Origin: Vagococcus xieshaowenii
GTDB taxonomy: Bacteria; Bacillota; Bacilli; Lactobacillales; Vagococcaceae
Assembly: GCF_004792515.1 (NCBI RefSeq)
Contig: NZ_CP038865.1
Location: 1,434,501 to 1,498,500 of the forward strand
Length of the DNA: 64,000 nt
Reading direction: 5' to 3'
How positions within the stretch are numbered: position 1 is the stretch's first letter; every line of letters starts with the position of its first letter. Made by a program: the position numbers and the translations under genes. Under the pieces are notes generated by a model, which worked only from the letters and a program-made list of their open reading frames with translations, was not told the DNA's origin and did not search any database. Positions 1 through 62,683 of the stretch are shown one piece after another.

Positions 1-79
1 TAAAATTTTTAGAAAAAAGGTACTGTGAGAGAATATCTTTCATATTTTCAAACGTTGATAACAATAAAAAATCAACCAT
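1..79 (-). CDS. 5' end of an unidentified gene, cut by the window edge
   Basis: An ATG at 79-77 on the minus strand follows a good GGAG ribosome binding site (about 85-95) and opens 26 codons without a stop up to the left edge. The visible peptide starts MVDFLLLSTFENMKDILSQ. The fragment is too short to name a family. It lies downstream of nifJ on the same strand, but the nifJ terminator separates them, so it probably has its own promoter. Confidence 0.5.
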   Translation of the reverse strand, partial: MVDFLLLSTFENMKDILSQYLFSKNF

Positions 80-255
80 CTATATTCTCCTTTCTTTTTC
101 TGTAAATAGTATAACATAAATAAGCCTTTCAAGAGTCTTATTGAACGTTTTTTCACAAAAATTTCTATCATTTTGCTTTGTTAGCCATCAAAACAGGAGC
201 TTGTGACAAAGTAAAATTTAAGAAGCTGCTTTTGCTACACCGTTCATGCGAAATA

Positions 256-291
256 AAAGAGCTGTGACAACAGTTTTGTCACAGCTCTTTC
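256..291 (-). terminator. Rho-independent terminator of nifJ
   Basis: The arms AGAGCTGTGACAA and TTGTCACAGCTCT form a 13-bp perfect stem with a 4-base loop, and a U-rich tract follows when read on the minus strand. It sits about 20 bases past the nifJ stop codon. Confidence 0.85.
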
Positions 292-311
292 TTAAAAAAT
301 ACCTAGTATGT

Positions 312-3300
312 TTATTCTTTTTCCAACTTTTGACGAATTTTTTCTTCCTGACCAGCAATTCGTGCATAGCGATAAAAACGCTTTTTAGCATCTTCAATTG
401 TTTTGTCATATAACTCATCTGCTACTTCAGGATTTACCTTACTTAGAGATGAAAAACGAGTCTCACTTAATAAAAAAGATTTCATTTGCTCAAAGTTAGG
501 TTTTTTGAAGTCTAAAGTCATAGGGTTCTTGCCTTTTTCTTCTAGTGTGGGGTTGTAACGATACAATGACCAATAACCTGAGTTAACCGCATCTTTCGTT
601 TGTTGTAACGTGATACCGCCACTAATTCCATGTGCTATACATGGTGTATAAGCTATAATTAATGAAGGTCCAGGGAATTTTTCTGCCTCTTCAATCGCTT
701 TAATGGTTTGCATTTGATTAGCACCTGATGCGATTTGCGCCACATACACATTGCCGTAACTCATGGCAATAACACCCAAATCTTTCTTTACCCCACGTTT
801 TCCATCTGCAGCAAATTTTGCAATAGCAGCTGTTGGGGTCGCTTTAGATTTTTGACCACCTGTATTAGAATAAACTTCATTATCCATCACCAAAATATTG
901 ACATCTTCACCACTTGATAAAATATGATCAATCCCACCAAAACCAATATCATACGCCCAACCATCGCCACCAATCATCCATTGACTAGGTTTCACTAATA
1001 AATCCCATTTTTGTGCGATTCGTTCTAAAACAGGATAGGTTTCTTTTTCCGCCTCGACCATTGCTTTTACTTTTTGTGCACGTTGTTGGGTTCCTTGGCT
1101 ATCATTAAAATGACTTAGCCAATCCGATAGCATCTGGGCAATCTCTTCTGATAACTGTTCTTCTTTTAATATCGTCTCAACTATCATCGCTAGCTCTTCT
1201 CTTCTAGAATTATTAGCTAAATACATCCCATAACCAAATTCGGCATTATCTTCAAATAAAGAATTTGACCATGCAGGTCCTTGTCCTAGGTGATTGGTTG
1301 TATAGGGGGTTGTCGACGCAGATGCCCCAAATATTGAAGAACACCCCGTAGCATTCGCCATCATTAAACGATCACCGTACAATTGCGTTAATAATTTAAT
1401 ATACGGTGTCTCTCCACAACCTGAACAAGCACCTGAAAATTCGATTAACGGTTGCTCAAACTGAGAGCCACGAATATTATTGGTTTTAAATGGATTGGCT
1501 TTTGTTTTCAACGTCATCGCAAAAGCCCAGTTAACTGCTTGTTCTTTCATCTCATCGTAAGGCTTCATTTCTAGTGCTTTTCCTTTAGCTGGACAAGCTT
1601 CCACACATAAACCACAACCTGTACAGTCTTCTAAAGATACTTGAATACGATACATTAAACCATCGGCTCCACGCATTTCTCTTGTTAGGAATCCATCAGG
1701 CGCTTCAGATTGTTCTTCCTCATCGACTAAGAATGGACGAATAGCCGCATGAGGACAGACAAAGGCACATTCATTACACATCGTACACTTATCCACATCC
1801 CATTCTGGCACCTCCAAAGCAATGCCGCGTTTCTCATACGCAGCCATACCACTTGGAATACGTCCATCAGTCATTTGTTGTTCCTTTAAATCGCCTACTG
1901 ATAAAGAATCTCCCTCATGTCGAGCAATGGGATCTACAATTTTAAAAACAAATTCTGGACGTTTCACGGTTGCATCAGTTAAGCGACCTTTCGTTTCCAA
2001 CCATGAATCATCTAGTTGAATTTCTCTCATACTATCCACGGTTAATCTCATCGCCTCAACATTTTTTTCGACTATATCGTTAGATTTTTTAGCAAATCGT
2101 CGTTTCAGTTCATCCATCATATGTTCTTCTGCCACTTTAGGTTCAATAATTCCTGCCAATTCGAAGAAAGCACGTTGCATAATAGTATTAATTCTTCCAG
2201 GTAATCCCACTTTAAGCGCGATTTGAGCCGCATCGACTACGTAAAACCGAATATTTTTTTCTATCATTTTTTTACGCATCTTATAAGGTAATAAGGTCTT
2301 TAACGTCTCATCTGACCAACTAGCATTCAAAAGAAAGACACCGTTTTCTCTTAAAGAATCAATCATGTCGTATTTTTTCACATAGGATGTATGATGACAG
2401 CCGACAAAATTGGCTTCATCGACTAAATATGTTGCTTCGATAGGATGTGGGCCAAATCGAAGATGTGATACGGTTAATCCCCCTGATTTTTTTGAATCGT
2501 AATCAAAATATCCTTGAACATAATGGTCTGTTTGATCACCAATTATCTTGATGGTTGAATAATTTGCCCCTACAGTGCCATCTGAACCAAATCCCCAAAA
2601 TTTCGCTTGATACGTTTCATCTGAAATTAGATTTATTTCTTCTTCCACAGGTAAGGATAAATAGGTTACATCATCGACAATCCCAATCGTAAAACGTTGT
2701 TTCAATTCATCTTTTGGTCTTAATAAATGTCTAAAAACAGCTAAAATATGACTGGGTGTTGTATTTTTTGAGCCTAATCCATAACGTCCTCCTGTAATAA
2801 TTGGTGCTGCATCACTGCCATACAAAGCACTTTGAACATCTAATAATAACGGTTCACCGTTAGCTCCAGGCTCTTTTGTTCGGTCCAATACGGCGATTTT
2901 TTTCACCGTTTTTGGTAACTTATTTAAGAAAACTTCTGTTGGAAACGGACGATATAAATGAATATTCAAATGTCCCACTTTTTGTCCCTGTGCATTTAAA
3001 TAATCGACAGTGTTTCTAACAGTTGAAGCAACACTTCCCATCGAAACAATCACTTCTGTCGCATCTTTTGCACCGTAATAAGTTACCAAATCATAATCTG
3101 TTCCACGTAGATCATTAATTTTTTGCATATAATGTTGGACAATGCCTGGTACAGCATCGTAATACGTATTAATTGTTTCACGTTGTTGGAAATGAATATC
3201 TGGATTTTGGTTGGTCCCACTGACATGCGGTTGGTTAGGATTCAAACTACGTTGACGAAATTCAGCTAATTTTTCTTCATTAACAAGCGGGCGTAATTCT

Positions 3301-3863
3301 TCATAATCGAGTACTTCTATTTTTTGTAGTTCATGACTCGTTCTAAACCCATCAAAAAAATTAATAAAAGGTAAGCTTGCTTCAATAGTTGCAAGATGAG
3401 CCACTGCAGATAAGTCCATCACTTCTTGGACGCTACTTTCTGCTAACATAACAAAACCTGTTTGACGTGCCGCCATGACATCGCCATGATCACCAAAAAT
3501 ACTTAAAGCATTAGTTGCTACCGCACGAGATGCTACATGAAAAACAGTGGGCAATAACTCGCCTGCAATTTTATACATATTAGGAATCATCAACAGTAAA
3601 CCTTGAGAAGCTGTATAAGTCGTTGTTAATGCACCTGTTTTCAACGCACCATGAACCACACCCGCTGCTCCTGCTTCTGATTGCATTTCAATTACTTGTA
3701 CTGGACGGTTAAATAAATTTTTCTTTCCCTCGACAGACCATTCATCGGTTACTTCTGCCATCGTTGAACTGGGGGTAATGGGATAGATAGCCGCTAACTC
3801 TGTGAATGCATACGCAATATGTGCTGCTGCTGTATTCCCGTCCATTGTCTTTAATTCACGCAT
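312..3863 (-). CDS. nifJ: Pyruvate:ferredoxin (flavodoxin) oxidoreductase
   Basis: This 1183-residue single-chain PFOR has the usual full length of the family. It oxidises pyruvate to acetyl-CoA and CO2, passing electrons to ferredoxin or flavodoxin in the cytoplasm. The N-terminal pyruvate/TPP domain opens with YPITPSSTMAE. Two 4Fe-4S clusters lie near residues 690 (CTMCNECAFVCP) and 745 (CTGCGLCVEACP). The C-terminal TPP site near residue 960 has GGDGWAYDIGFGG and NEVYSNTGGQKSKATP, and SGACSGCGETP near 805 supplies the proximal-cluster cysteines. GGAG lies 9 bases before the ATG. It is monocistronic. Finding it beside a full PDH operon is notable for a lactic bacterium; no ferredoxin or flavodoxin gene is in the window. 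Confidence 0.96.
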   Translation of the reverse strand: MRELKTMDGNTAAAHIAYAFTELAAIYPITPSSTMAEVTDEWSVEGKKNLFNRPVQVIEMQSEAGAAGVVHGALKTGALTTTYTASQGLLLMIPNMYKIAGELLPTVFHVASRAVATNALSIFGDHGDVMAARQTGFVMLAESSVQEVMDLSAVAHLATIEASLPFINFFDGFRTSHELQKIEVLDYEELRPLVNEEKLAEFRQRSLNPNQPHVSGTNQNPDIHFQQRETINTYYDAVPGIVQHYMQKINDLRGTDYDLVTYYGAKDATEVIVSMGSVASTVRNTVDYLNAQGQKVGHLNIHLYRPFPTEVFLNKLPKTVKKIAVLDRTKEPGANGEPLLLDVQSALYGSDAAPIITGGRYGLGSKNTTPSHILAVFRHLLRPKDELKQRFTIGIVDDVTYLSLPVEEEINLISDETYQAKFWGFGSDGTVGANYSTIKIIGDQTDHYVQGYFDYDSKKSGGLTVSHLRFGPHPIEATYLVDEANFVGCHHTSYVKKYDMIDSLRENGVFLLNASWSDETLKTLLPYKMRKKMIEKNIRFYVVDAAQIALKVGLPGRINTIMQRAFFELAGIIEPKVAEEHMMDELKRRFAKKSNDIVEKNVEAMRLTVDSMREIQLDDSWLETKGRLTDATVKRPEFVFKIVDPIARHEGDSLSVGDLKEQQMTDGRIPSGMAAYEKRGIALEVPEWDVDKCTMCNECAFVCPHAAIRPFLVDEEEQSEAPDGFLTREMRGADGLMYRIQVSLEDCTGCGLCVEACPAKGKALEMKPYDEMKEQAVNWAFAMTLKTKANPFKTNNIRGSQFEQPLIEFSGACSGCGETPYIKLLTQLYGDRLMMANATGCSSIFGASASTTPYTTNHLGQGPAWSNSLFEDNAEFGYGMYLANNSRREELAMIVETILKEEQLSEEIAQMLSDWLSHFNDSQGTQQRAQKVKAMVEAEKETYPVLERIAQKWDLLVKPSQWMIGGDGWAYDIGFGGIDHILSSGEDVNILVMDNEVYSNTGGQKSKATPTAAIAKFAADGKRGVKKDLGVIAMSYGNVYVAQIASGANQMQTIKAIEEAEKFPGPSLIIAYTPCIAHGISGGITLQQTKDAVNSGYWSLYRYNPTLEEKGKNPMTLDFKKPNFEQMKSFLLSETRFSSLSKVNPEVADELYDKTIEDAKKRFYRYARIAGQEEKIRQKLEKE

Positions 3864-4095
3864 TTACTTGTTCTCCTTTTTTCATCTTTGTGAAAAAACT
3901 ACCTAAGTTATTATATCCTTTTTACCTCACTTTTAAAAGACCTTATTTACTATAAGCAAACTAGCTGACTTTTTTTAATAAAAACTAATCATTTTATTTA
4001 ACTATCTAATTGTAAGTCAAAAGGCAATAAAAAATCGAACGTTTATGATACAATTATTTTTGTAAATAGACCCTTTAAATATATAGGAGGAAACA

Positions 4096-4728
4096 ATGAT
4101 GAAAATTGGTATTATTGCAGCGAACGGTAAAGTTGGTCAATTGATTACTGAAGAAGCCGTCAATAAAGGATATGAGGTAACAGCAATTGTTAGAAACGAT
4201 AACAAAACTACTGCACCACGGTCACTACAAAAAGATTTATTTGATTTAACTCGTGATGATATCTCTTCATTTGATGTTATCATTGATGCAGCAGGTTTTT
4301 GGCAACCCGAAGACTTAATCAAGCATCAAACGTCTATTGCTCATTTAACTGATATCTTAAAAGGAACACCCACACGATTAATAATAGTTGGCGGCGCAGG
4401 TAGTTTATATATGGATGCTACTCATACCATTCAATTAAAAGATACTCCTGATTTTCCTGAAGCGTATAAACCACTTGCTGAAAGTATGGCTAAAGGCTTG
4501 GATTTGTTGCGTGAACGTCACGATAGCCACTGGGTTTATGTCAGCCCCGCAGCCGATTTCATTGCGGATGGAGAAAAAACTGGTCAGTATGCCTTTACAG
4601 GTGAAGAATTCACTGTCAATAAACACGGTAAAAGTTACTTAAGCTATGCCGATTATGCAACTGCTCTAGTTGAGCTTTTAGAAGATACCTCTATCAATCA
4701 GCAACGAGTGGCTATTTATACTAAGTAA
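4096..4728 (+). CDS. NAD(P)-binding Rossmann protein (NmrA/YwnB-like)
   Basis: The protein has 210 residues. The start MMKIGIIAANGKVGQLI is a Rossmann nucleotide-binding loop of the NAD(P)H-binding (atypical SDR) type, and VDAAGFW/IIVGGAGSLY-like segments follow, as in YwnB and YwnB-like quinone reductases or epimerases. AGGAGG at 4085-4090 precedes a double ATG (4096 and 4099), so the start could be one codon later. It is monocistronic with its own terminator. The substrate cannot be told from sequence. It is the only plus-strand gene between nifJ and the sprT/tex pair. Confidence 0.75.
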   Translation: MMKIGIIAANGKVGQLITEEAVNKGYEVTAIVRNDNKTTAPRSLQKDLFDLTRDDISSFDVIIDAAGFWQPEDLIKHQTSIAHLTDILKGTPTRLIIVGGAGSLYMDATHTIQLKDTPDFPEAYKPLAESMAKGLDLLRERHDSHWVYVSPAADFIADGEKTGQYAFTGEEFTVNKHGKSYLSYADYATALVELLEDTSINQQRVAIYTK

Positions 4729-4744
4729 TTAAAAGATATAACGA

Positions 4745-4780
4745 AAAAGCGCACGACTATTCAACGTCGTGCGCTTTTAA
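4745..4780. terminator. Bidirectional terminator after the Rossmann protein gene
   Basis: The arms AAAAGCGCACGAC and GTCGTGCGCTTTT pair perfectly around an 8-base loop. A T-run follows on both strands, so it can also stop transcription of the convergent sprT-like gene. Confidence 0.85.
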
Positions 4781-4839
4781 TATAATAGGTTATCAATTAT
4801 TTCAATCTATTTATTAAACAATATTGTTCAATTATTCAG

Positions 4840-5337
4840 TCATTCTAATGTTATCATGACTAAATCACCAAAACATTTACAGCGATAGCGATTGAGGTCG
4901 ATTTTTTTCTGACGATAATAATCTAGTTGACATTTCTGACAGCGATAATGGTAACGAGTCTCTTTTTCAACTAACGGTTTTACATAACGTGAGCCACCTA
5001 CCGCTTTTAATAATAGTTTAAAGGCTTTGTCTCTATGTTGATAGCCGCGTCCGGTTAAATGCAAATGATAGTGGCAAAGTTCATGTAGTATCACATTGAC
5101 TAATTCTTCCCACCCATACTTTGTATAGACTAGTGGGTTAATATCAATATGATGACTAGTCAAATGATATCTACCACCTGTCGTCTTTAATCGTTTATTT
5201 ACTTTTGCATCATGAGTAAATGGCGCATTAAAGCATCTTAACGAAATGATGCTTATCCATTCGGTTAAAGAGTCATCTGTCAAAGGTGGTTCGTCTTGAA
5301 ATAGTTGTTCAAAATAACGATAATCTTCGCTTAACAT
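4840..5337 (-). CDS. SprT-like zinc metalloprotease-fold protein
   Basis: This 165-residue SprT-family protein resembles B. subtilis YdcK. The zinc-binding HELCH is at residues 85-89, within LHELCHYHLH. A C-terminal zinc ribbon uses CQKC (133-136) and CKC (153-155). The eukaryotic relative Spartan cleaves DNA-protein crosslinks; the role of the short bacterial form is not established. Its ATG overlaps the tex stop codon by one base (TAATG), so the two are translationally coupled. The tex-sprT order is conserved in Firmicutes. Confidence 0.88.
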   Translation of the reverse strand: MLSEDYRYFEQLFQDEPPLTDDSLTEWISIISLRCFNAPFTHDAKVNKRLKTTGGRYHLTSHHIDINPLVYTKYGWEELVNVILHELCHYHLHLTGRGYQHRDKAFKLLLKAVGGSRYVKPLVEKETRYHYRCQKCQLDYYRQKKIDLNRYRCKCFGDLVMITLE

Positions 5338-7517
5338 TAGGCTTGATTGGGACCTAACATACTTAGTGCGACACGATGTTTGGCTAAGTCAACTTCTTCA
5401 ATCCAGACTGTTACGATATCACCAACTGCGACTACATCAGTTGGATGCTTAACAAATTTATGACTTAATTTAGAAATATGTACTAACCCATCTTGTTTAA
5501 CACCAATATCCACAAATGCCCCGAAATCGACCACATTTCTGATGGTCCCTTCTAGTTCCATGCCGACTTTTAAGTCTTCCATCGTTAATACATCTTTTCT
5601 TAATAGTGGAGCAGGCATAGCCTCACGCATATCACGCCCTGGTTGTTTCAATGCCTCTACGATATCTTGTAATGTTTCTTCTCCTATAGACAAGTGTTGT
5701 GCCATTGAAGGTAATGACATATTGGCAAGTTTTTGCTTACTTTCTTCTGTTCCTAATTCTGTTAATTGAATGCCTAATTCTTTTAATAAACGTTCCGTTG
5801 CTTCATAACTTTCTGGGTGAATTCCGGTATTGTCTAAAATGGTTTTACCACCCACAATTCGGATAAAACCAACTGCTTGTTCATAAGCTTTTGGTCCTAA
5901 TCGTGGTACTTTTTTCAACTGTTTACGATCAGTAAAAACACCATTTTCATCACGATACTTCACAAAGTTTTGCGCAGTGGTTTTGTTCAATCCGGCCACG
6001 TGTTGTAGTAATTCAGAGCTAGCCGTATTAGCATTGACACCTACTTGGTTAACCGCTGTTTCCACAACAAAGTCTAATTGTTCAGCTAAGCGTTTTTGAG
6101 AAACATCGTGTTGATATTGTCCGACACCAACAGCTTTAGGATCAATTTTTACCAATTCTGCTAAGGGATCTTGTAAACGACGCGCAATACTAACTGCACT
6201 ACGTTCTTCAACTTGCAAATCTGGAAATTCTTCACGAGCAACCGCACTTGCTGAGTAAACCGAAGCACCGGCTTCATTAACAATCACATAGTACACACTA
6301 CGCTCTATTTGTCTTAATTGCTCGGCAACAAACAATTCTGATTCCCGACTAGCAGTCCCATTCCCAATAGCAACCATCTCAACTTGATACGTTTCGATTA
6401 GTTCTCTAAAGGTTGGACCTGCGGCAGCTTTTTTGGCTGCAGGAGCTGGATTGTGTGGATAAATAACATTAATGGCTAAGACTTTTCCTGTACCATCAAC
6501 AATCGCTAATTTACATCCCGTACGATATGCTGGATCAAATCCCATTACGACTTTATCTTTTAATGGTGACTGTAATAATAAATGACGTAGATTTTCACCA
6601 AAAATATTAATGGCTTGTTCATCAGCTTTTTCTGTTAATTCTGAGCGAATTTCACGTTCGATTGCTGGCTTAATAAAACGTTTATAGCTATCTTGATACG
6701 CAGCACGAATATAAGCTACTGCCGTACTTTGCGTGTGTTGGCCAATCAAATGACGTTCAAAGTAACGCATCACTTCTTCTTCTGGAAGGGTTAATTCCAC
6801 TTTAAGTATGCCTTCTTTTTCCCCACGATTCATTGCTAGAACACGATGAGAAACAATCGTTTTAACCGGTTCTTGAAAATCGTAGTACATTTCAAAAATC
6901 TGTTTTTCATCTTTTGAAGCATCTTTTCCACTACTTACTAAGATACCTTTTTTCATTGTAAAGTCACGCAGCCACTCACGATAGCTTGCATCATCACTAA
7001 TGATTTCTGCAATAATTTCATGTGCTCCTTGGTAGACATCTTCTGTACTCATTACCTCATTGGCCTCATTAATATAAGCTTGTGCTTCTACTTCAACCGG
7101 GCTACTTGGATAAGTTAATAACCATTTAGCAAATGGTTCTAAACCTTTTTCTTTGGCGATAGTTGCCTTAGTACGTCGCTTTTGTTTGTAAGGTCGATAA
7201 ATATCTTCTAGCTTTTGCATCGTAGTGGCCGTGAGTATTTGTTTAGATAACTCAGGCGTTAGTTTGTCTTGTTCGTGAATTAGTCGTTCTACTTCTTCAC
7301 GTCGTTTTTCTAAATTAGTAATATATTGATGACGTTCTTCAATTTCACGAATCATGACTTCATCTAAGCTACCGGTTGCTTCTTTACGATAACGTGCAAT
7401 AAACGGTACCGTGTTTCCTTCAGCTAATAATTCTAACACTTTCTTGATTTGATTAGGTTTGTACTGATTTAATTCTTTGATTAAAATTGAATGTACACGT
7501 TGTTCTTTTTCTTCCAA
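5337..7517 (-). CDS. tex: Tex-family RNA-binding transcription accessory protein
   Basis: The protein has 726 residues, the usual Tex length. It has the N-terminal Tex helical region (FIARYRKEATGSLDEV), a YqgF/RNase H-like domain (VVMGFDPAYRTGCKLAI near residue 325), a helix-hairpin-helix pair (GVNANTASSELLQ, VPRLGPKAYEQA) and a C-terminal S1 domain (GTIRNVVDFGAFVDIG). Tex binds nucleic acid and affects transcription and RNA turnover. The start is TTG (7517-7515) preceded by GTGGAG; no ATG lies near the conserved N-terminus. It is co-transcribed with the sprT-like gene. Confidence 0.95.
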   Translation of the reverse strand: MEEKEQRVHSILIKELNQYKPNQIKKVLELLAEGNTVPFIARYRKEATGSLDEVMIREIEERHQYITNLEKRREEVERLIHEQDKLTPELSKQILTATTMQKLEDIYRPYKQKRRTKATIAKEKGLEPFAKWLLTYPSSPVEVEAQAYINEANEVMSTEDVYQGAHEIIAEIISDDASYREWLRDFTMKKGILVSSGKDASKDEKQIFEMYYDFQEPVKTIVSHRVLAMNRGEKEGILKVELTLPEEEVMRYFERHLIGQHTQSTAVAYIRAAYQDSYKRFIKPAIEREIRSELTEKADEQAINIFGENLRHLLLQSPLKDKVVMGFDPAYRTGCKLAIVDGTGKVLAINVIYPHNPAPAAKKAAAGPTFRELIETYQVEMVAIGNGTASRESELFVAEQLRQIERSVYYVIVNEAGASVYSASAVAREEFPDLQVEERSAVSIARRLQDPLAELVKIDPKAVGVGQYQHDVSQKRLAEQLDFVVETAVNQVGVNANTASSELLQHVAGLNKTTAQNFVKYRDENGVFTDRKQLKKVPRLGPKAYEQAVGFIRIVGGKTILDNTGIHPESYEATERLLKELGIQLTELGTEESKQKLANMSLPSMAQHLSIGEETLQDIVEALKQPGRDMREAMPAPLLRKDVLTMEDLKVGMELEGTIRNVVDFGAFVDIGVKQDGLVHISKLSHKFVKHPTDVVAVGDIVTVWIEEVDLAKHRVALSMLGPNQA

Positions 7518-7564
7518 AACACTCCACGTCCTTCACTTTATTTCATTATCTATCATATCATAAA

Positions 7565-8293
7565 TTATTCTTCTGGTTGCCATACTTCTCCTTGGAAAAA
7601 TTCTTGTGCTTGCAAGATTCCTTCTGACGAAAAAATAACCACATGAAGACTCCCACCGTATATTGCTCCACCATCCATACCAATCTTATGATCATGTTGC
7701 CACAACTTGGTCGTTTGATTATCTCCATATAAATAGTGCGTTGGTGTATGGCCAAATACCAACGTCTTGCCCGTTTTATTGGGTAATTGGTGAAACGGCT
7801 CGCGGATCCAAATAAATTCACGCTCACTTGTCTTGCGCCAATCGCTTAAGGTTAAATTAACCCCTGCATGAACAAAAACATATGCTTGCCATTCATAATA
7901 TAGCGGTAGTGTTTTTAAGAACGTGAGTAATGTCTCATAGTGATAGCGAATCATTGCCGCAATTTCAGAAGGTGAATATTCCTCACAGGCACCTTTATGT
8001 AGTAAACTCTCGATAGTAAGTTTTCCACCATTTAATAAGTAATTAGGATACCGTTCAATAGGATCCTCAATAAATCTCAATAGTAGATCTTCATGATTTC
8101 CTTTCAAGTAAACGGCCCCATATTCTTCGACTAATTTCTTACCTAGAAGCAAGCATTCCTTACTATACGTTCCCCGGTCAAGTAAATCTCCTAATAATAC
8201 CAACTGATGCATAGTTGGATCAAATTCTATTAATGCTCGTTGAAAACTATTTATATCTCCATGAATATCTCCAATCACATAAGCCAACTTCAT
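7565..8293 (-). CDS. PrpE/ApaH-like metallophosphoesterase
   Basis: The protein has 242 residues and shows the complete calcineurin-like phosphoesterase signature: GDIHG near the N-terminus, GDLLDRG, GNHE, GHTPTHY and a final DGG. This set matches PPP-type serine/threonine phosphatases and bis(5'-nucleosyl)-tetraphosphatases such as PrpE, which need two metal ions. The substrate (phosphoprotein or Ap4A) cannot be decided from sequence. AAGGTGAT precedes the ATG. It lies upstream of tex on the same strand with a 47-base gap and downstream of the DUF1149 gene, whose terminator separates them. Confidence 0.88.
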   Translation of the reverse strand: MKLAYVIGDIHGDINSFQRALIEFDPTMHQLVLLGDLLDRGTYSKECLLLGKKLVEEYGAVYLKGNHEDLLLRFIEDPIERYPNYLLNGGKLTIESLLHKGACEEYSPSEIAAMIRYHYETLLTFLKTLPLYYEWQAYVFVHAGVNLTLSDWRKTSEREFIWIREPFHQLPNKTGKTLVFGHTPTHYLYGDNQTTKLWQHDHKIGMDGGAIYGGSLHVVIFSSEGILQAQEFFQGEVWQPEE

Positions 8294-8318
8294 ATTATCA
8301 CCTTCTTTTCTTGTAAAT

Positions 8319-8350
8319 AAAAAGAGGCAGACAAACTGTCCACCCCTATG
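8319..8350 (-). terminator. Probable terminator after the DUF1149 gene
   Basis: Read on the minus strand, an imperfect hairpin (AGGGGTGGACAG / CTGTC..CCTCT) is followed by TTTTT. The stem has mismatches, so this is a moderate call. Confidence 0.5.
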
Positions 8351-8356
8351 TATAGG

Positions 8357-8740
8357 CTAATCTTCTTGTTGGAAGTTTAATTTAACACCAGGAATATCAA
8401 GGGCAATTTCTGTTACTTCTTCCGTTAAACGTTCCACAACTCTAAATAGTGGTTTGATTAACTCGTTAACTTCTTCCTTTGATAATTCTTCTGACGCTGT
8501 AATTTTACGGCCATGAACTTCGACCAATTGACGAACTGCGCCTGTTAATACAAAATCAGGGAACATAATTTTATAAATCACTCGTACCCCTAATATACTA
8601 TTTTTTTCAGAATCAAAATCTGCTTCCTCATTAACTTCAAGTGGTGTTACATCTACTTTAATTTCATTTTCACCTTGTTCACCATTATGTGCATCATAAT
8701 GAAATGCTTCTACAAACGCCTTATGTCTAACTAATTCCAT
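8357..8740 (-). CDS. DUF1149-family protein
   Basis: This 127-residue acidic cytoplasmic protein has no signal peptide or membrane segment. It looks like the lactobacillalean DUF1149 family (start MELVRHKAFVEAFHYDA, middle ILGVRVIYKIMFPDFVLTG, C-terminal IPGVKLNFQQED). No function is established for the family. A good ribosome binding site (AAGGAGGAT) precedes the ATG. It is the first gene of a minus-strand run ending with sprT, but an internal hairpin probably limits readthrough. Confidence 0.7.
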   Translation of the reverse strand: MELVRHKAFVEAFHYDAHNGEQGENEIKVDVTPLEVNEEADFDSEKNSILGVRVIYKIMFPDFVLTGAVRQLVEVHGRKITASEELSKEEVNELIKPLFRVVERLTEEVTEIALDIPGVKLNFQQED

Positions 8741-8892
8741 CTTATCCTCCTTATTAATTCTTCAAATTTATTATTCATTTCTTTATTCAATTATAGCATA
8801 TTCCTACTATATAATACATCTTCATATTTTTTTGACTACTGATTATTTATGCAAAAAGCGCTAATTTTTTAACAGAATTATGCTCGATGTTG

Positions 8893-8901
8893 TGCTATAA
8901 T
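8893..8901 (+). promoter_or_regulatory. Extended -10 promoter for the YfcC-type carrier
   Basis: TGCTATAAT gives an extended -10 element (TGn + TATAAT) about 39 bases before the start codon. No good -35 box stands 17 bases upstream, which fits an extended -10 promoter. Confidence 0.55.
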
Positions 8902-8939
8902 GTTTATGGTTTTATAACATATATATAAAGGAGAATTCT

Positions 8940-10673
8940 ATGTCGGGAACAAACGTGAAGAAAAAGAAAGATTTGACACAGATAAAAACACCACATACCT
9001 ATGTCATTATCTTTGGTGTTGTCGTATTAGCGTGGCTATTAACTTATTTAGTCCCTGCTGGTAAGTTTGACACAACAGAAATTGAATACAAGGACGCAAA
9101 CGGTGAAGTTGCAACAAAAACCGTTTTAGATCAGGACTCATTCCGCTATCAATATAATTTAGATGGTAATATCGTGATTGAGAAATTAGAAGAGTTAGCT
9201 AACGATGAAGCCACTCTTGATAAAATTGGTGTTAGCCAAAGTGATGTAGAAGGTATTATTGCTGATGGTGCAGAAAACATCTCACAAGAAACTTTAGATG
9301 AGTACAACTTAACAGATGATACGCTATATGAGTTATATGGTAAGGACATTTATGATACATCTAAAAAATTACACAAAACAGCAAAATTGTGGGGAACAGA
9401 TGATTTTGGTGGTTTTGGTTTCCTAAACTTTGTCTTTGAAGGGTTAGTTTCTGGAGACAAATACGGTTCTGCTGTCGGCATCGCTGCATTAATCTTAGTC
9501 GTTGGTGGTGCTTTTGGTATTATCATGCGTACCGGTGCAATTGATGCTGGTATCTATGCCTTTATTAGTAAAACTAAGGGGCTAGAAAAATTAGCTTTAC
9601 CGTTGCTGTTCTTCGCCTTTTCTTTTGGTGGAGCAACATTTGGGATGGCTGAAGAAGTCATCCCGTTCTCAATGGTTATGGTACCCTTCGTTATTGCCTT
9701 AGGTTATAACTCTATCGTTGCGGTTACCGTAACTTATGTGGCCTCACAGGTCGGAAATGCGACATCATGGATGAGTCCATTTAGTGTGGCTGTTGCCCAA
9801 GGTATCGCTGGTGTTCCTGTACTTTCAGGTGCAACATTCCGTATTATTATGTGGGTAGTCGTCACTGCTTTATCCGCAGCTTATATGATGATTTACGCTG
9901 AAAAAATCCGTAAAAATCCATTAACTTCAGAAACATATGAATCAGATCAATATTTCCGTGATCAAATTAAGAAGACATCTGATGAGAAAAAACCATTCTT
10001 ATTAGGACACAAATTAATTCTAATTGAAATGTTAATCGTCTTAGTTTGGATTATTTGGGGCGTAACGCAAAAAGGCTACTACATTCCAGAAATTGCCTCT
10101 CAATTTTTCGTAATGGGACTTATTGCTGGTATCACAGCCGTTATCTTCAAACTTGATGGTATGGGGATTAATGATATTGCTAAGAGCTTCCAAAACGGAG
10201 CTGCCGATTTAGCAGGAACAGCAATTGTAGTTGGTATGGCAAAAGGTATTCTTCTAGTTTTAGGTGGCTCTGACGCTGCACAATACTCTGCTTTGAATAC
10301 AACGTTACATTCAATTGGTTCTGCACTTTCTGGCTTACCTGCTTTAGTTGGTGCTTGGTTCATGTACATTTTCCAAAGTTTATTCAACTTAGTGGTAACA
10401 TCAAACTCTGGACAAGCCGCTTTAACAATGCCAATTATGGCACCGTTAGCTGATCTACTAAACATTCCAAGACAGATTGCTGTCTTAGCTTATCAATTAG
10501 GAGCAGGCTTCATGGATGCTTTCACACCTGTTTCAGCAAGTTTAATTGGTGTTCTAGGTGTTGCACATATTGACTGGGCAAAATGGGCGAAATTCCAAAT
10601 TAAAATGCAAGCATTCTTATTCGTATTAGGTTGTATCTTTATTGCTATTGCGATTATGATTGGCTTACAATAA
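8940..10673 (+). CDS. YfcC-family carrier (DcuC/AbgT-related)
   Basis: This 577-residue polytopic membrane protein is of the YfcC (C4-dicarboxylate/basic amino acid carrier-like) family. The first membrane helix is near residues 20-40 (VIIFGVVVLAWLLTYLVPAG), followed by a long polar segment, here about 110 residues, before the second helix. Core motifs are GGAFGIIMRTGAIDAG, FGGATFGMAEEVIPF, QVGNATSWMSPF and SNSGQAALTMPIMAPL. Its position just before a small membrane protein and isoaspartyl dipeptidase suggests it imports dipeptides or their products; that is inference from context. AAAGGAG precedes the ATG. Confidence 0.85.
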   Translation: MSGTNVKKKKDLTQIKTPHTYVIIFGVVVLAWLLTYLVPAGKFDTTEIEYKDANGEVATKTVLDQDSFRYQYNLDGNIVIEKLEELANDEATLDKIGVSQSDVEGIIADGAENISQETLDEYNLTDDTLYELYGKDIYDTSKKLHKTAKLWGTDDFGGFGFLNFVFEGLVSGDKYGSAVGIAALILVVGGAFGIIMRTGAIDAGIYAFISKTKGLEKLALPLLFFAFSFGGATFGMAEEVIPFSMVMVPFVIALGYNSIVAVTVTYVASQVGNATSWMSPFSVAVAQGIAGVPVLSGATFRIIMWVVVTALSAAYMMIYAEKIRKNPLTSETYESDQYFRDQIKKTSDEKKPFLLGHKLILIEMLIVLVWIIWGVTQKGYYIPEIASQFFVMGLIAGITAVIFKLDGMGINDIAKSFQNGAADLAGTAIVVGMAKGILLVLGGSDAAQYSALNTTLHSIGSALSGLPALVGAWFMYIFQSLFNLVVTSNSGQAALTMPIMAPLADLLNIPRQIAVLAYQLGAGFMDAFTPVSASLIGVLGVAHIDWAKWAKFQIKMQAFLFVLGCIFIAIAIMIGLQ

Positions 10674-58911: not shown

Positions 58912-58915
58912 TAGT

Positions 58916-58951
58916 AAAGGGAGCAGAAGATTAATCTTCTGCTCCCTTTAT
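58916..58951. terminator. Bidirectional terminator between trpS and the repeat-protein gene
   Basis: AAAGGGAGCAGAAGA pairs with TCTTCTGCTCCCTTT around TTAA, T-rich on both strands. Confidence 0.9.
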
Positions 58952-58956
58952 CTTTT

Positions 58957-61188
58957 TTATTTGATGATATCTTGTTGAATTACCCAGTAATCTAAACCTT
59001 TAAGTTTATAGGCAATGTTTGAATCATCGATATTAATAATATGAATATCTTCTACTTCATATTCTTTTCCTTTAACATCTGCTGGAATTTCGTTACGTTC
59101 TTCGTAATGTGTTGCATGTTCTGCTACTTTAACTGTTTGACCAATTGCAAATGTTGCTTCTTTTAATTTATCATTTATTGCATCTTTAGCAAATAAGTTA
59201 TGCTCGCTAATCCATTGACGTGCTTCTTCAAGATAATATGCTCTTGTTGAATCGCCATCCACTACTTCTTTAACACCCGCTATGGTAAAGTCTTTACCTA
59301 ACTCAACTTTAGGAATAGTTAAACCATCTGTAAATTTAGTTGCAAAATCTTGTAACTTAACTTTTGCTCCTTTAGCAACTGCTGGGAATTTAGATGCAAT
59401 ACTAATTGGGTCCACATCTACTGTTGGTAGTTCTGGGAACAAATCTTTTTCACTGATCCATTGTTTTAATTCTGTTAAATAGTATGAACGTTTAGCATCG
59501 CCATCTTCTTTTTCTTCTACTTTTTCAACTGTGTATTCTTTTGTTAAATCAATATCACCTAAATCTGTACCATCTGCAAATTTTGTTGCAAAGTCTTGAA
59601 TTTTTACTTTTCCACCTAATTCAATTGATGGGAATACTGAGGTGATCTTAGCTGGATCTAATAATGAATTTACTGCTACTTCGCTATCTTCTGAACTCTC
59701 TTCAACCACAACTTTTTTACTTGTACTTTCTTCCGCTACTATTGTTTCACTTGTTGAAGCATCCGTATTGATGGCTACTTCATCATCTTTAGGACTAAAT
59801 AACCCTAATAATCCTCCTAATAATCCTAATGCTCCTAAACCTAATAACCAAGGTAACCAACTACCCCATAAAGATTTTTTAGGTTTTTCTTCAGCTGTTA
59901 AACGGACAATATCAGGTTTCTCATCCTTAATATCTGTTTTCAATCCTACTTTTTCAACTTTAGGTTCTACCTTAATGTCTTTCTTCACATCACGGTCGAC
60001 TAAACCTACTTTGGGTAACCCAAGAGATAAAGCTGGCAGTAATTTTGCCCAGTCAAAGTTTAAGTTTGGTGTTAATTTAAATTTGTTGATTAATCCTCTA
60101 ATATCTTTAGCATAGCTGCCAAAATCTTTTTCATGACGGTCAACTAACAATGAAGCTTCATTATATTTTTTATCTTTCAATAAGCCAGCTAGTTTATTGG
60201 CTAAATCTGGTTTTCCAATGTTTGTAAATAAATTTTTGACTGTATCAAAATCAAGGTTAATATCAGTTGCTGCGCTAACTGCATCTCCCACTTTATCCAT
60301 TGTAGATTTAATTCCTAGTGTTGGAATTAATTTATTCCATTCTAAATCAACATTTGGTGTTAATTTCACTTTATTAATGAAGGCTTTTACATCGTTTGAA
60401 TAATCGCCAAAATCTTTTGAATGTCTGTCAACTAACAATGTTGCTTCATTATATTTTTTATCTTTTAGCAAACTAGCTAGTTTATTGACTAAGTCTGGTT
60501 TTCCAATATTTATAAATAAATTTTTCACTTTATCCATGTCAAAATCAAGCCGTGACGTGTTATCGGTTAATTTGTCAACTACTTTATCCACAGCCTTATC
60601 TGTCACTGAAAACGCATCGGAAACTGTATCTGTAACTTTATTCAATGTTGTTTTCAAACCAAATGCAGGAACATCCTTATTTTCTTTGCCAAATGCTAAC
60701 CAACCTTTGATATCATCATAAAAATCACCTAGTTTTTCCTTATAACCATCTACTAAAATATTAGCTTCAGCAAAACGATTCGTTGAAACTAACTTTTGAA
60801 TATCTTCTAGTATGCCATGATCATTTTCAGGTAACACTAATTTTAACGCTTGATTACGAGCAAAAGATAATAAGTCCTTCATTTCATAATAATAATCACC
60901 TAATAAGTTTTTGCTAGTGTCTACTAACGAGTTAGCTTTTTTGAAATCATTTGTCGAAATTAATCCTAAAACATCTTTAAATAATGAATTACCTTCTAAC
61001 TTACTATCTTGACTAATTCTCATCATACGGTTAGTGATGAACCATTGAATCATCTCTTCAAATTTGTCTCCTAAGTACTCTTTACGACTTTCTAAATACG
61101 TCATTGCTTTTGCATAATCTTTGTCATTAAATAATTGTTGAAAACGTGTAATAACCTTTTCTTGAATTAATTTTTTATCATCTACCAT
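58957..61188 (-). CDS. Novel membrane protein: cytoplasmic helical repeats plus extracellular SH3b-like repeats
   Basis: The protein has 743 residues and no recognised family. Five units of about 37 residues (15-50, 73-109, 129-165, 235-272, 331-369) share an Ala-rich helix with LVD and then LGDxY/FGDY. The last two sit in larger near-identical units (215-295, 312-390: NIGKPDL, DKKYNEA). One membrane helix lies at 443-464 after KPKKSLWGSW, so the repeats should be inside. Three units of about 70-75 residues follow (513-584, 593-665, 672-742; VKxQDFATKF, YYLxE, QWISE), SH3b-like and outside. GGGGAG precedes the ATG. It follows the 67-residue gene. Confidence 0.75.
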   Translation of the reverse strand: MVDDKKLIQEKVITRFQQLFNDKDYAKAMTYLESRKEYLGDKFEEMIQWFITNRMMRISQDSKLEGNSLFKDVLGLISTNDFKKANSLVDTSKNLLGDYYYEMKDLLSFARNQALKLVLPENDHGILEDIQKLVSTNRFAEANILVDGYKEKLGDFYDDIKGWLAFGKENKDVPAFGLKTTLNKVTDTVSDAFSVTDKAVDKVVDKLTDNTSRLDFDMDKVKNLFINIGKPDLVNKLASLLKDKKYNEATLLVDRHSKDFGDYSNDVKAFINKVKLTPNVDLEWNKLIPTLGIKSTMDKVGDAVSAATDINLDFDTVKNLFTNIGKPDLANKLAGLLKDKKYNEASLLVDRHEKDFGSYAKDIRGLINKFKLTPNLNFDWAKLLPALSLGLPKVGLVDRDVKKDIKVEPKVEKVGLKTDIKDEKPDIVRLTAEEKPKKSLWGSWLPWLLGLGALGLLGGLLGLFSPKDDEVAINTDASTSETIVAEESTSKKVVVEESSEDSEVAVNSLLDPAKITSVFPSIELGGKVKIQDFATKFADGTDLGDIDLTKEYTVEKVEEKEDGDAKRSYYLTELKQWISEKDLFPELPTVDVDPISIASKFPAVAKGAKVKLQDFATKFTDGLTIPKVELGKDFTIAGVKEVVDGDSTRAYYLEEARQWISEHNLFAKDAINDKLKEATFAIGQTVKVAEHATHYEERNEIPADVKGKEYEVEDIHIINIDDSNIAYKLKGLDYWVIQQDIIK

Positions 61189-61272
61189 GTTTTTCTCCCC
61201 TAACTAATAGTTTTCTCCAAAAAACAAAACGTTTAAAACTCCTATATACTGTTATCTATGAGTAGTTCTTTC

Positions 61273-61476
61273 TTATTCTATGATTTCGTCATCAAGAGAA
61301 ACGGTCGTATTTGATCCTATATTGCTTAACCAGTTGATAACTTCTTCATACTGATCACCTAATAGCTCTTGATTTGCTTCCGCATAACTAATAGCTCCAG
61401 ATAAATCATCGTTATCTAAGAAGTTCTTTAACGCAAGTGCCACATCTTCGGTTAAATAAATTTCTTTTTCTCCCAT
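61273..61476 (-). CDS. Single-repeat small protein paired with the large repeat protein
   Basis: The protein has 67 residues and is acidic and soluble. Residues 14-50 are one copy of the helical unit of the downstream protein (SYAEANQELLGDQYEEVINW compares with TYLESRKEYLGDKFEEMIQW in its first unit). It ends with a short acidic tail (SLDDEIIE). GGAGG precedes the ATG. No terminator is seen in the 84 bases before the large gene, so they form an operon. It may cap, seed or regulate the repeat stack; this is inference. Confidence 0.75.
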   Translation of the reverse strand: MGEKEIYLTEDVALALKNFLDNDDLSGAISYAEANQELLGDQYEEVINWLSNIGSNTTVSLDDEIIE

Positions 61477-61618
61477 ACTGTCTCCTCCAAAAAAATTATT
61501 AAACTACTTGTTATTTAAATCTTATCACCTTCTTTAAAAAATAATAAACATTTAAACTTATTATTAATATTTGTATATTAAATCGCATACATATTACTTT
61601 TTTTATATTTTTACGCAG

Positions 61619-61648
61619 AAAAAAAGAGCAGAAAAAATTCTGCTCCTT
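61619..61648 (-). terminator. Terminator of lplA
   Basis: GAGCAGAA and TTCTGCTC arms with a TTTTTTT tail on the minus strand, past the lplA stop codon. Confidence 0.8.
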
Positions 61649-61678
61649 CTTCAAATGGAAATATAAAGTTATTTTATT

Positions 61679-62683
61679 TTAATAAAGTAACCCTAGTAAA
61701 TCTTGTGCTGAAATATTTCCAAAATATTTTTGGATGTCTATTCTACTTACTACTTCTTGTAAATCTTCTTTTGTATAACGTGTTCCTACAAGCATTTGTT
61801 CAACATCTGCAATTTCTCCTAGTCCAAAGAAATCACCAAAGATTTTAGCCTCTTGAATTTTACCTTCTGCAACATTCAAGCGTACTTCTACTGAACCAAT
61901 TGGGAAACGCTCACGACGAACTTTATCAAATTCAGGTGATTTACCAAAATTCCAATCCCAATTGCGATAATATTTATCAGAAATTTCATTAATTCTAGCC
62001 CAGTCCTCATCTGTTAATTCATAAGTTTGAACTTGATCGATTGAATCGACGTTAAAAATACGTAATAAAATATCATCTCGGAAATCTTTTGTGGAAAGAT
62101 TTTGATACGCATCATCCAAGTACGGCTTAATGTTAGTCACACGTGAACGAATGGACTTAATCCCTTTAGATTCGATTTTATCTTTACGAACTTTTAATGC
62201 ATTTACTACTTCATTCACGTCACTATCTAACATAATTGTACCGTGAGCGAACATACGACCATTTGTCGCATACATTGCGTTACCAGAGAATTTTTTATCG
62301 CCAATTACTAAGTCATTACGACCTTTTAATTCAGCACCTGAGACGCCCATTGAATGTAGAGCTTCAATAATTGGGCTCGTTAATTTTTTGAAGTCACGGA
62401 ATGATTCGCCATCATCTGGCATAATAAAACTGAAATTCAAATTACCAAAATCATGATACACCGCACCACCACCACTTAAGCGGCGCACGACGTGAATATT
62501 ATTTTCTTCCACATAGTCTAAGTTAATTTCCTCAATCGTATTTTGGTTACGACCAATAATGATTGATGGCTCATTGATATAAAATAATAAAATGGGTTCA
62601 TCGACTTTCATCTCTTGTAATAAAAACGTTTCAATTGCTAAGTTAACACGTGGGTCATTGTTTTCATTTGGGACATAAATCAT
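61679..62683 (-). CDS. lplA: Lipoate-protein ligase
   Basis: The enzyme has 334 residues from ATG 62683. Motifs VRRLSGGGAVYHDFGNLNFSF, GRNDLVIGDKKFSGNA (catalytic Lys) and the C-terminal ligase accessory domain (WNFGKSPEF) are of the LplJ type. It attaches free lipoate to E2 and GcvH. AAAGGAG lies 9 bases before that ATG; a further ATG eight codons upstream would contain the ribosome binding site. It follows the MBL gene, as yhfI-lplJ do in B. subtilis. Confidence 0.94.
   Translation of the reverse strand: MIYVPNENNDPRVNLAIETFLLQEMKVDEPILLFYINEPSIIIGRNQNTIEEINLDYVEENNIHVVRRLSGGGAVYHDFGNLNFSFIMPDDGESFRDFKKLTSPIIEALHSMGVSGAELKGRNDLVIGDKKFSGNAMYATNGRMFAHGTIMLDSDVNEVVNALKVRKDKIESKGIKSIRSRVTNIKPYLDDAYQNLSTKDFRDDILLRIFNVDSIDQVQTYELTDEDWARINEISDKYYRNWDWNFGKSPEFDKVRRERFPIGSVEVRLNVAEGKIQEAKIFGDFFGLGEIADVEQMLVGTRYTKEDLQEVVSRIDIQKYFGNISAQDLLGLLY

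Follow-up and report, generated by a model that had tools for sequence, protein, structure and literature searches.

A rare Vagococcus membrane protein that joins the helical module of tiny free proteins to endolysin-type repeats

Introduction

In a 64,000-nucleotide stretch of the genome of Vagococcus xieshaowenii (hereafter, the window), two neighbouring genes encode a small acidic protein and a much larger membrane protein that share a helical unit. A preliminary description, made from the DNA letters alone, took them for an operon of novel proteins forming a wall-sensing or scaffold device, in which the small protein would cap or compete for the stack of units in the large one. This raises the question of what the two proteins are built from, and whether they belong together as such a device. 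Our analysis indicates that both genes are real, undescribed and narrowly distributed, and that their parts are either of known kinds or can now be tied to a broader family of very small proteins.

Results and discussion

Layout of the locus

Both open reading frames were found on the minus strand in the layout first proposed, the small gene preceding the large one by a gap of 84 nt, with strong ribosome-binding sites ahead of both (Table 1). They are likely co-transcribed. The terminator scan gave no terminator-like site between them, a two-way terminator-like hairpin lies on the trpS side, and an inverted repeat followed by a T run, seen by direct reading and absent from the scan output, lies just after lplA (about 61622–61648); given these three observations, the pair likely forms its own transcription unit.

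Table 1. Positions in the window of the two genes, their parts and the flanking signals
Feature	Position	Strand	Basis
Small gene, 67 aa, acidic, one unit	61273..61476	-	ORF list, unit profile, predicted structure
Unit within small protein (residues 10-52)	61321..61449	-	unit profile
Large gene, 743 aa: five units, membrane helix, three C-terminal repeats	58957..61188	-	
Unit 1 of large protein (residues 10-54), closest to small protein	61027..61161	-	unit profile, unit tree
Unit 2 of large protein (residues 67-113)	60850..60990	-	unit profiles
Unit 3 of large protein (residues 124-170)	60679..60819	-	unit profiles
Unit 4 of large protein (residues 231-277)	60358..60498	-	unit profiles
Unit 5 of large protein (residues 327-373)	60070..60210	-	unit profiles
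Membrane helix of large protein (about residues 445-463)	59800..59856	-	hydropathy peak
Outer repeat 1 (residues 513-585)	59434..59652	-	C-terminal repeat comparison
Outer repeat 2 (residues 595-667)	59188..59406	-	C-terminal repeat comparison
Outer repeat 3 (residues 676-743)	58960..59163	-	C-terminal repeat comparison
Block 5' of the pair, kept in the sister species without the small gene; probable promoter region	61505..61579	-	
Two-way terminator-like hairpin, common to the pair and convergent trpS	58914..58951	no strand	

Neither protein could be assigned to a described family, as had been anticipated: searches of Pfam, NCBIfam, PHROGs, PADLOC and PDB sequences returned weak matches only. 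The small protein has a net charge of -14 and a single match to the unit profile, and its portrayal as an acidic one-unit protein therefore stands.

The helical unit

The five copies of the unit in the large protein, as originally counted, were recovered both by a profile built from these same units (72–76 bits each) and by an independent profile made only from stand-alone proteins, with no sequence from the window (19.7–27.0 bits). The latter also found the small protein at 22.0 bits, compared with a top score of 6.5 bits among 200 shuffled proteins, and again picked up the units and the small protein in a whole-genome search. Aligned directly with residues 7–50 of the large protein, the small protein scored 80, against 32 for the best of 60 shuffles, and in a unit tree of only 48 columns it groups with unit 1 (support 0.95). 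The unit was measured to be nearer 45 residues long than the approximately 37 initially given. Its proposed motif holds in part: LVD is present in units 2–5, but unit 1 has YLE and the small protein YAE, and a single A and a single G are the only invariant positions. Long, low-complexity, amphipathic linkers separate units 3–5. By eye, the stretches before units 4 and 5 (window 60210–60250 and 60510–60550; DKVKNLF and DTVKNLF) resemble the C-terminal DKVKGLF of the stand-alone proteins described below.

The predicted structures agree with the inner helical stack of the preliminary description, helical units being predicted in both models. The model of the small protein, computed with 20 relatives, has three helices (residues 10–21, 25–34 and 36–56; mean pLDDT 75). 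The model of the large protein, a poor one made from two rows, has the same helical unit pattern, with a mean pLDDT of 50.8 overall and of about 60–84 per ten-residue block within residues 1–160; a Foldseek search with this whole low-confidence model gave no match at E 0.001. In the structural comparison, TPR-type chains ranked first for the small model (2e2e, Z 6.0, rmsd 2.7 over 54 residues; 5jhe, Z 5.9), at Z values below 8, which are common for helical models and may mean only a common arrangement. The unit is thus predicted to be a three-helix TPR-like module. With TPR proteins it shares the short packed helices predicted here and the lead of TPR-type chains in the structural list, but it differs in having three helices over approximately 45 residues, and no TPR profile of Pfam exceeded its cut-off in either window protein (the best value, on a relative, was E 0.25).

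Distribution of the stand-alone unit

A profile of the units of the window and of a sister species, run over 395 genomes of the order, matched roughly 70 genomes at E < 1e-5, nearly always in open frames of about 60–100 residues. A combined profile had a match in 50 of the 105 genomes of one related family and in 12 of the 29 genomes of the window's own family; these matches were in short frames with one unit each, the exceptions being the large genes of the window genome and of one sister. Multi-unit frames were found in only two species among the 395 sampled genomes, and outside the order only weak matches appeared. The unit, introduced as a feature of the two-gene operon, is indeed present there, but it is also widespread as a stand-alone protein of approximately 61 residues, for which no Pfam family fits and a literature search found nothing.

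These tiny proteins carry the same unit as the window proteins, with profile matches in both directions, the invariant A and a near-invariant G. In those examined, a single unit is followed by an amphipathic helix at the C-terminus, and in contrast to the large protein they have no membrane or wall part. They also differ from the small protein, which in the alignment ends in SLDDEIIE, in that their C-terminal helix ends in K-x-x-[LFI]-F or similar. Searches of named genomes, viral contigs, phages and plasmids, in scans that may omit near relatives, gave no relatives of the inner part of the large protein.

Besides the small gene, the window genome has two more single-unit genes, making three free single-unit proteins in all. 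A 136-residue single-unit protein is encoded behind rpsP and a KH-type gene (contig C1, about 980759–981169; sister-species counterpart at C1:1089510-1089653), and an 89-residue protein in which the unit matches more weakly, also with a counterpart in the sister, is encoded at about 329798–330067 of contig C1. The neighbourhoods of stand-alone unit genes vary, with no conserved gene partner, and therefore no partner can be read from them. In some genomes of one related family, two single-unit matches occur on opposite strands at a distance of 1–2 kb, close to a universal-stress-type gene, one such locus having a transposase-like ORF between the two matches. In several genomes of the window's family, a single-unit gene stands beside the same two genes, which by eye are DUF1836- and DegV-like.

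Membrane helix and outer repeats

The one membrane helix ascribed to the large protein was recovered as a single hydrophobic peak (Table 1). Because lysines flank this stretch on its N-terminal side, the first approximately 440 residues are taken to be cytoplasmic, a topology read from hydropathy and charge only.

The C-terminus is filled by three repeats of approximately 70 residues. They are homologous to repeats in a protein with phage-type lysozyme and NlpC/P60 domains from a genome of the same family (E 6.6e-12), in which five copies, scoring 35–45 bits each, lie between the two domains. Relatives also occur in an NlpC/P60 protein of the order and, as a single copy, in a prophage-type amidase of a congener, and the repeats match Enterococcus and Streptococcus phage lytic enzymes (phage lytic amidase, E 2e-7). 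While homologous to these endolysin and hydrolase repeats of approximately 66–70 residues, those of the large protein follow a membrane helix and are accompanied by no catalytic domain. For the repeat, neither a Pfam family nor a sequence relative in the PDB was found. The repeats had been described as three SH3b-like units; their number holds, and they are related to repeats of wall hydrolases, but an SH3 fold is at most tentative. No SH3 family model of Pfam matched the large protein, and strands are predicted within the repeats, at low confidence, in the large model. Considering their homology to endolysin and NlpC/P60 hydrolase repeats, it is likely, as a fair inference from sequence, that they bind the cell wall, through either peptidoglycan or a wall polymer.

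What is new here is the recognition of the unit as the core of an unannotated stand-alone protein, its predicted three-helix TPR-like form, the link of the outer repeats to those of endolysins and NlpC/P60 hydrolases, and the finding of the large gene in two species only. In the large protein, an unannotated helical module that is common across the order in tiny free proteins stands together with a membrane helix and wall repeats of endolysin type.

The locus in related species

The large gene was detected in only one other of the 29 genomes of the window's family, that of a species of the same genus. The sister protein (833 aa, 76% identical) has six units as opposed to five, both ends being conserved between the two species while the unit number differs. 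Unit 1 is 93% identical and units 2 and 3 are 80–84% identical, whereas units 4–5 and the sister units 4–6 are 62–73% identical and group together in the tree. Given this grouping and the conservation of unit 1, tandem duplication extends the distal part of the array, whereas unit 1 is kept as it is.

The sister retains the block of approximately 75 bp upstream of the pair. It has no small gene in the interval from lplA to the large gene, however, and a search of its genome gave no further match to the small gene. A degraded small gene was considered and rejected; past the shared upstream block there is no clear similarity, and the one frame read contains stops. The pair is thus not upheld as a conserved device, since the only other species with the large gene has no small gene beside it. 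The adjacency that was to be checked across relatives is not kept there; a large gene without its small neighbour, one half of what had been named beforehand as telling against the pairing, is seen in this single case.

Many other relatives carry trpS, clpP and then lplA at this locus, and clpP is absent from it in the window genome and the sister (window 58912–61679). For this reason the module of small and large gene looks like a local insertion or replacement. That the large gene is so very narrowly distributed speaks against its having a core role.

Possible functions

MapZ (LocZ) positions the division site of ovococci, binding FtsZ and marking mid-cell. It consists of a cytoplasmic part, a single membrane span and a wall-facing extracellular part (PMC4931243). 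The large protein likewise has one predicted span between a cytoplasmic and an outer part, in a presumed orientation, but the MapZ extracellular domain (PF18041) is not matched in it in Pfam, its inner part is made of unit repeats and its outer part of endolysin-type repeats. Identity with MapZ was rejected: the window genome encodes a MapZ-type protein elsewhere, namely a zinc-ribbon protein whose MapZ_EC1 match exceeds the cut-off, and therefore the large protein is at most MapZ-like in its working and not a member of that family. A second protein with MapZ_EC1-like matches is encoded on the 60-kb contig C3 of the window genome (C3:14500-14868).

By sequence, the large protein comprises five copies of the unit, one membrane helix and three hydrolase-type repeats. 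Such a protein, rare and undescribed, probably tethers the cell wall to the cytoplasm. Our best explanation, which we judge to have about an even chance of being right as a whole, is that of a single-span wall tether of MapZ-like topology with a cytoplasmic TPR-like docking stack, in which the small protein, as a paralogue of unit 1, is accessory and not a needed component. The N-terminal half would lie in the cytoplasm, the C-terminal repeats would attach to peptidoglycan or a wall polymer, and the stack would act as a docking platform through which a cytoplasmic partner is brought to particular sites of the wall, comparable to what MapZ does for FtsZ, although with unrelated parts. The partners of the stack might conceivably include free single-unit proteins. 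If the stack is indeed a docking platform, its partners may reveal the role of the free modules across the order.

The device first proposed survives in part, the wall-linked scaffold being supported and the capping or competing partner weakened, because the pairing is not conserved and the large protein exists without the small one. A wall sensor tuned by the free one-unit protein, through capping of the stack or competition for it, would fit two adjacent, probably co-transcribed genes on the same strand and a small protein that is closest to unit 1 and predicted to fold as a unit. However, the sister keeps the large gene and a nearly unchanged unit 1 without the small gene, and other single-unit proteins occur without any large gene, and we regard this role as improbable. 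A passive structural or surface protein, whose stack only adds stiffness or oligomerises and whose outer repeats fasten the membrane to the wall, with no partner being positioned, is also on the unlikely side, if somewhat less so. The variable copy number of the inner array, the nature of the linkers between units 3–5 and the lack of a conserved gene partner are what such a protein would lead one to expect, but the strong conservation of unit 1 is not, and TPR-like folds usually bind partners.

More ambitious than the docking tether that we favour, and harder to credit than the capping role, is a picture in which the approximately 61-residue proteins form a widespread undescribed TPR-like class docking to itself or to shared partners, with the large protein as its wall-bound hub and free module and array together acting as a wall-sensing switch. 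Least probable of all, in our estimation, would be a recently acquired accessory gene, specific to the lineage and mobile or phage-linked in origin, its outer part derived from an endolysin, with a role in phage or envelope conflict. Phage lytic enzymes share the outer repeats, and the large gene was found in two species only, in a place where clpP is present in most relatives; yet its position is stable in both species, there is no PADLOC match, and phages, viral contigs and plasmids yielded no relative of the inner part.

Elsewhere in the window genome, the first 9 kb (1–9000) of the 27-kb contig C2 are 99.8% identical to a plasmid of Enterococcus faecium that carries MobQ and TrsE-type transfer genes.
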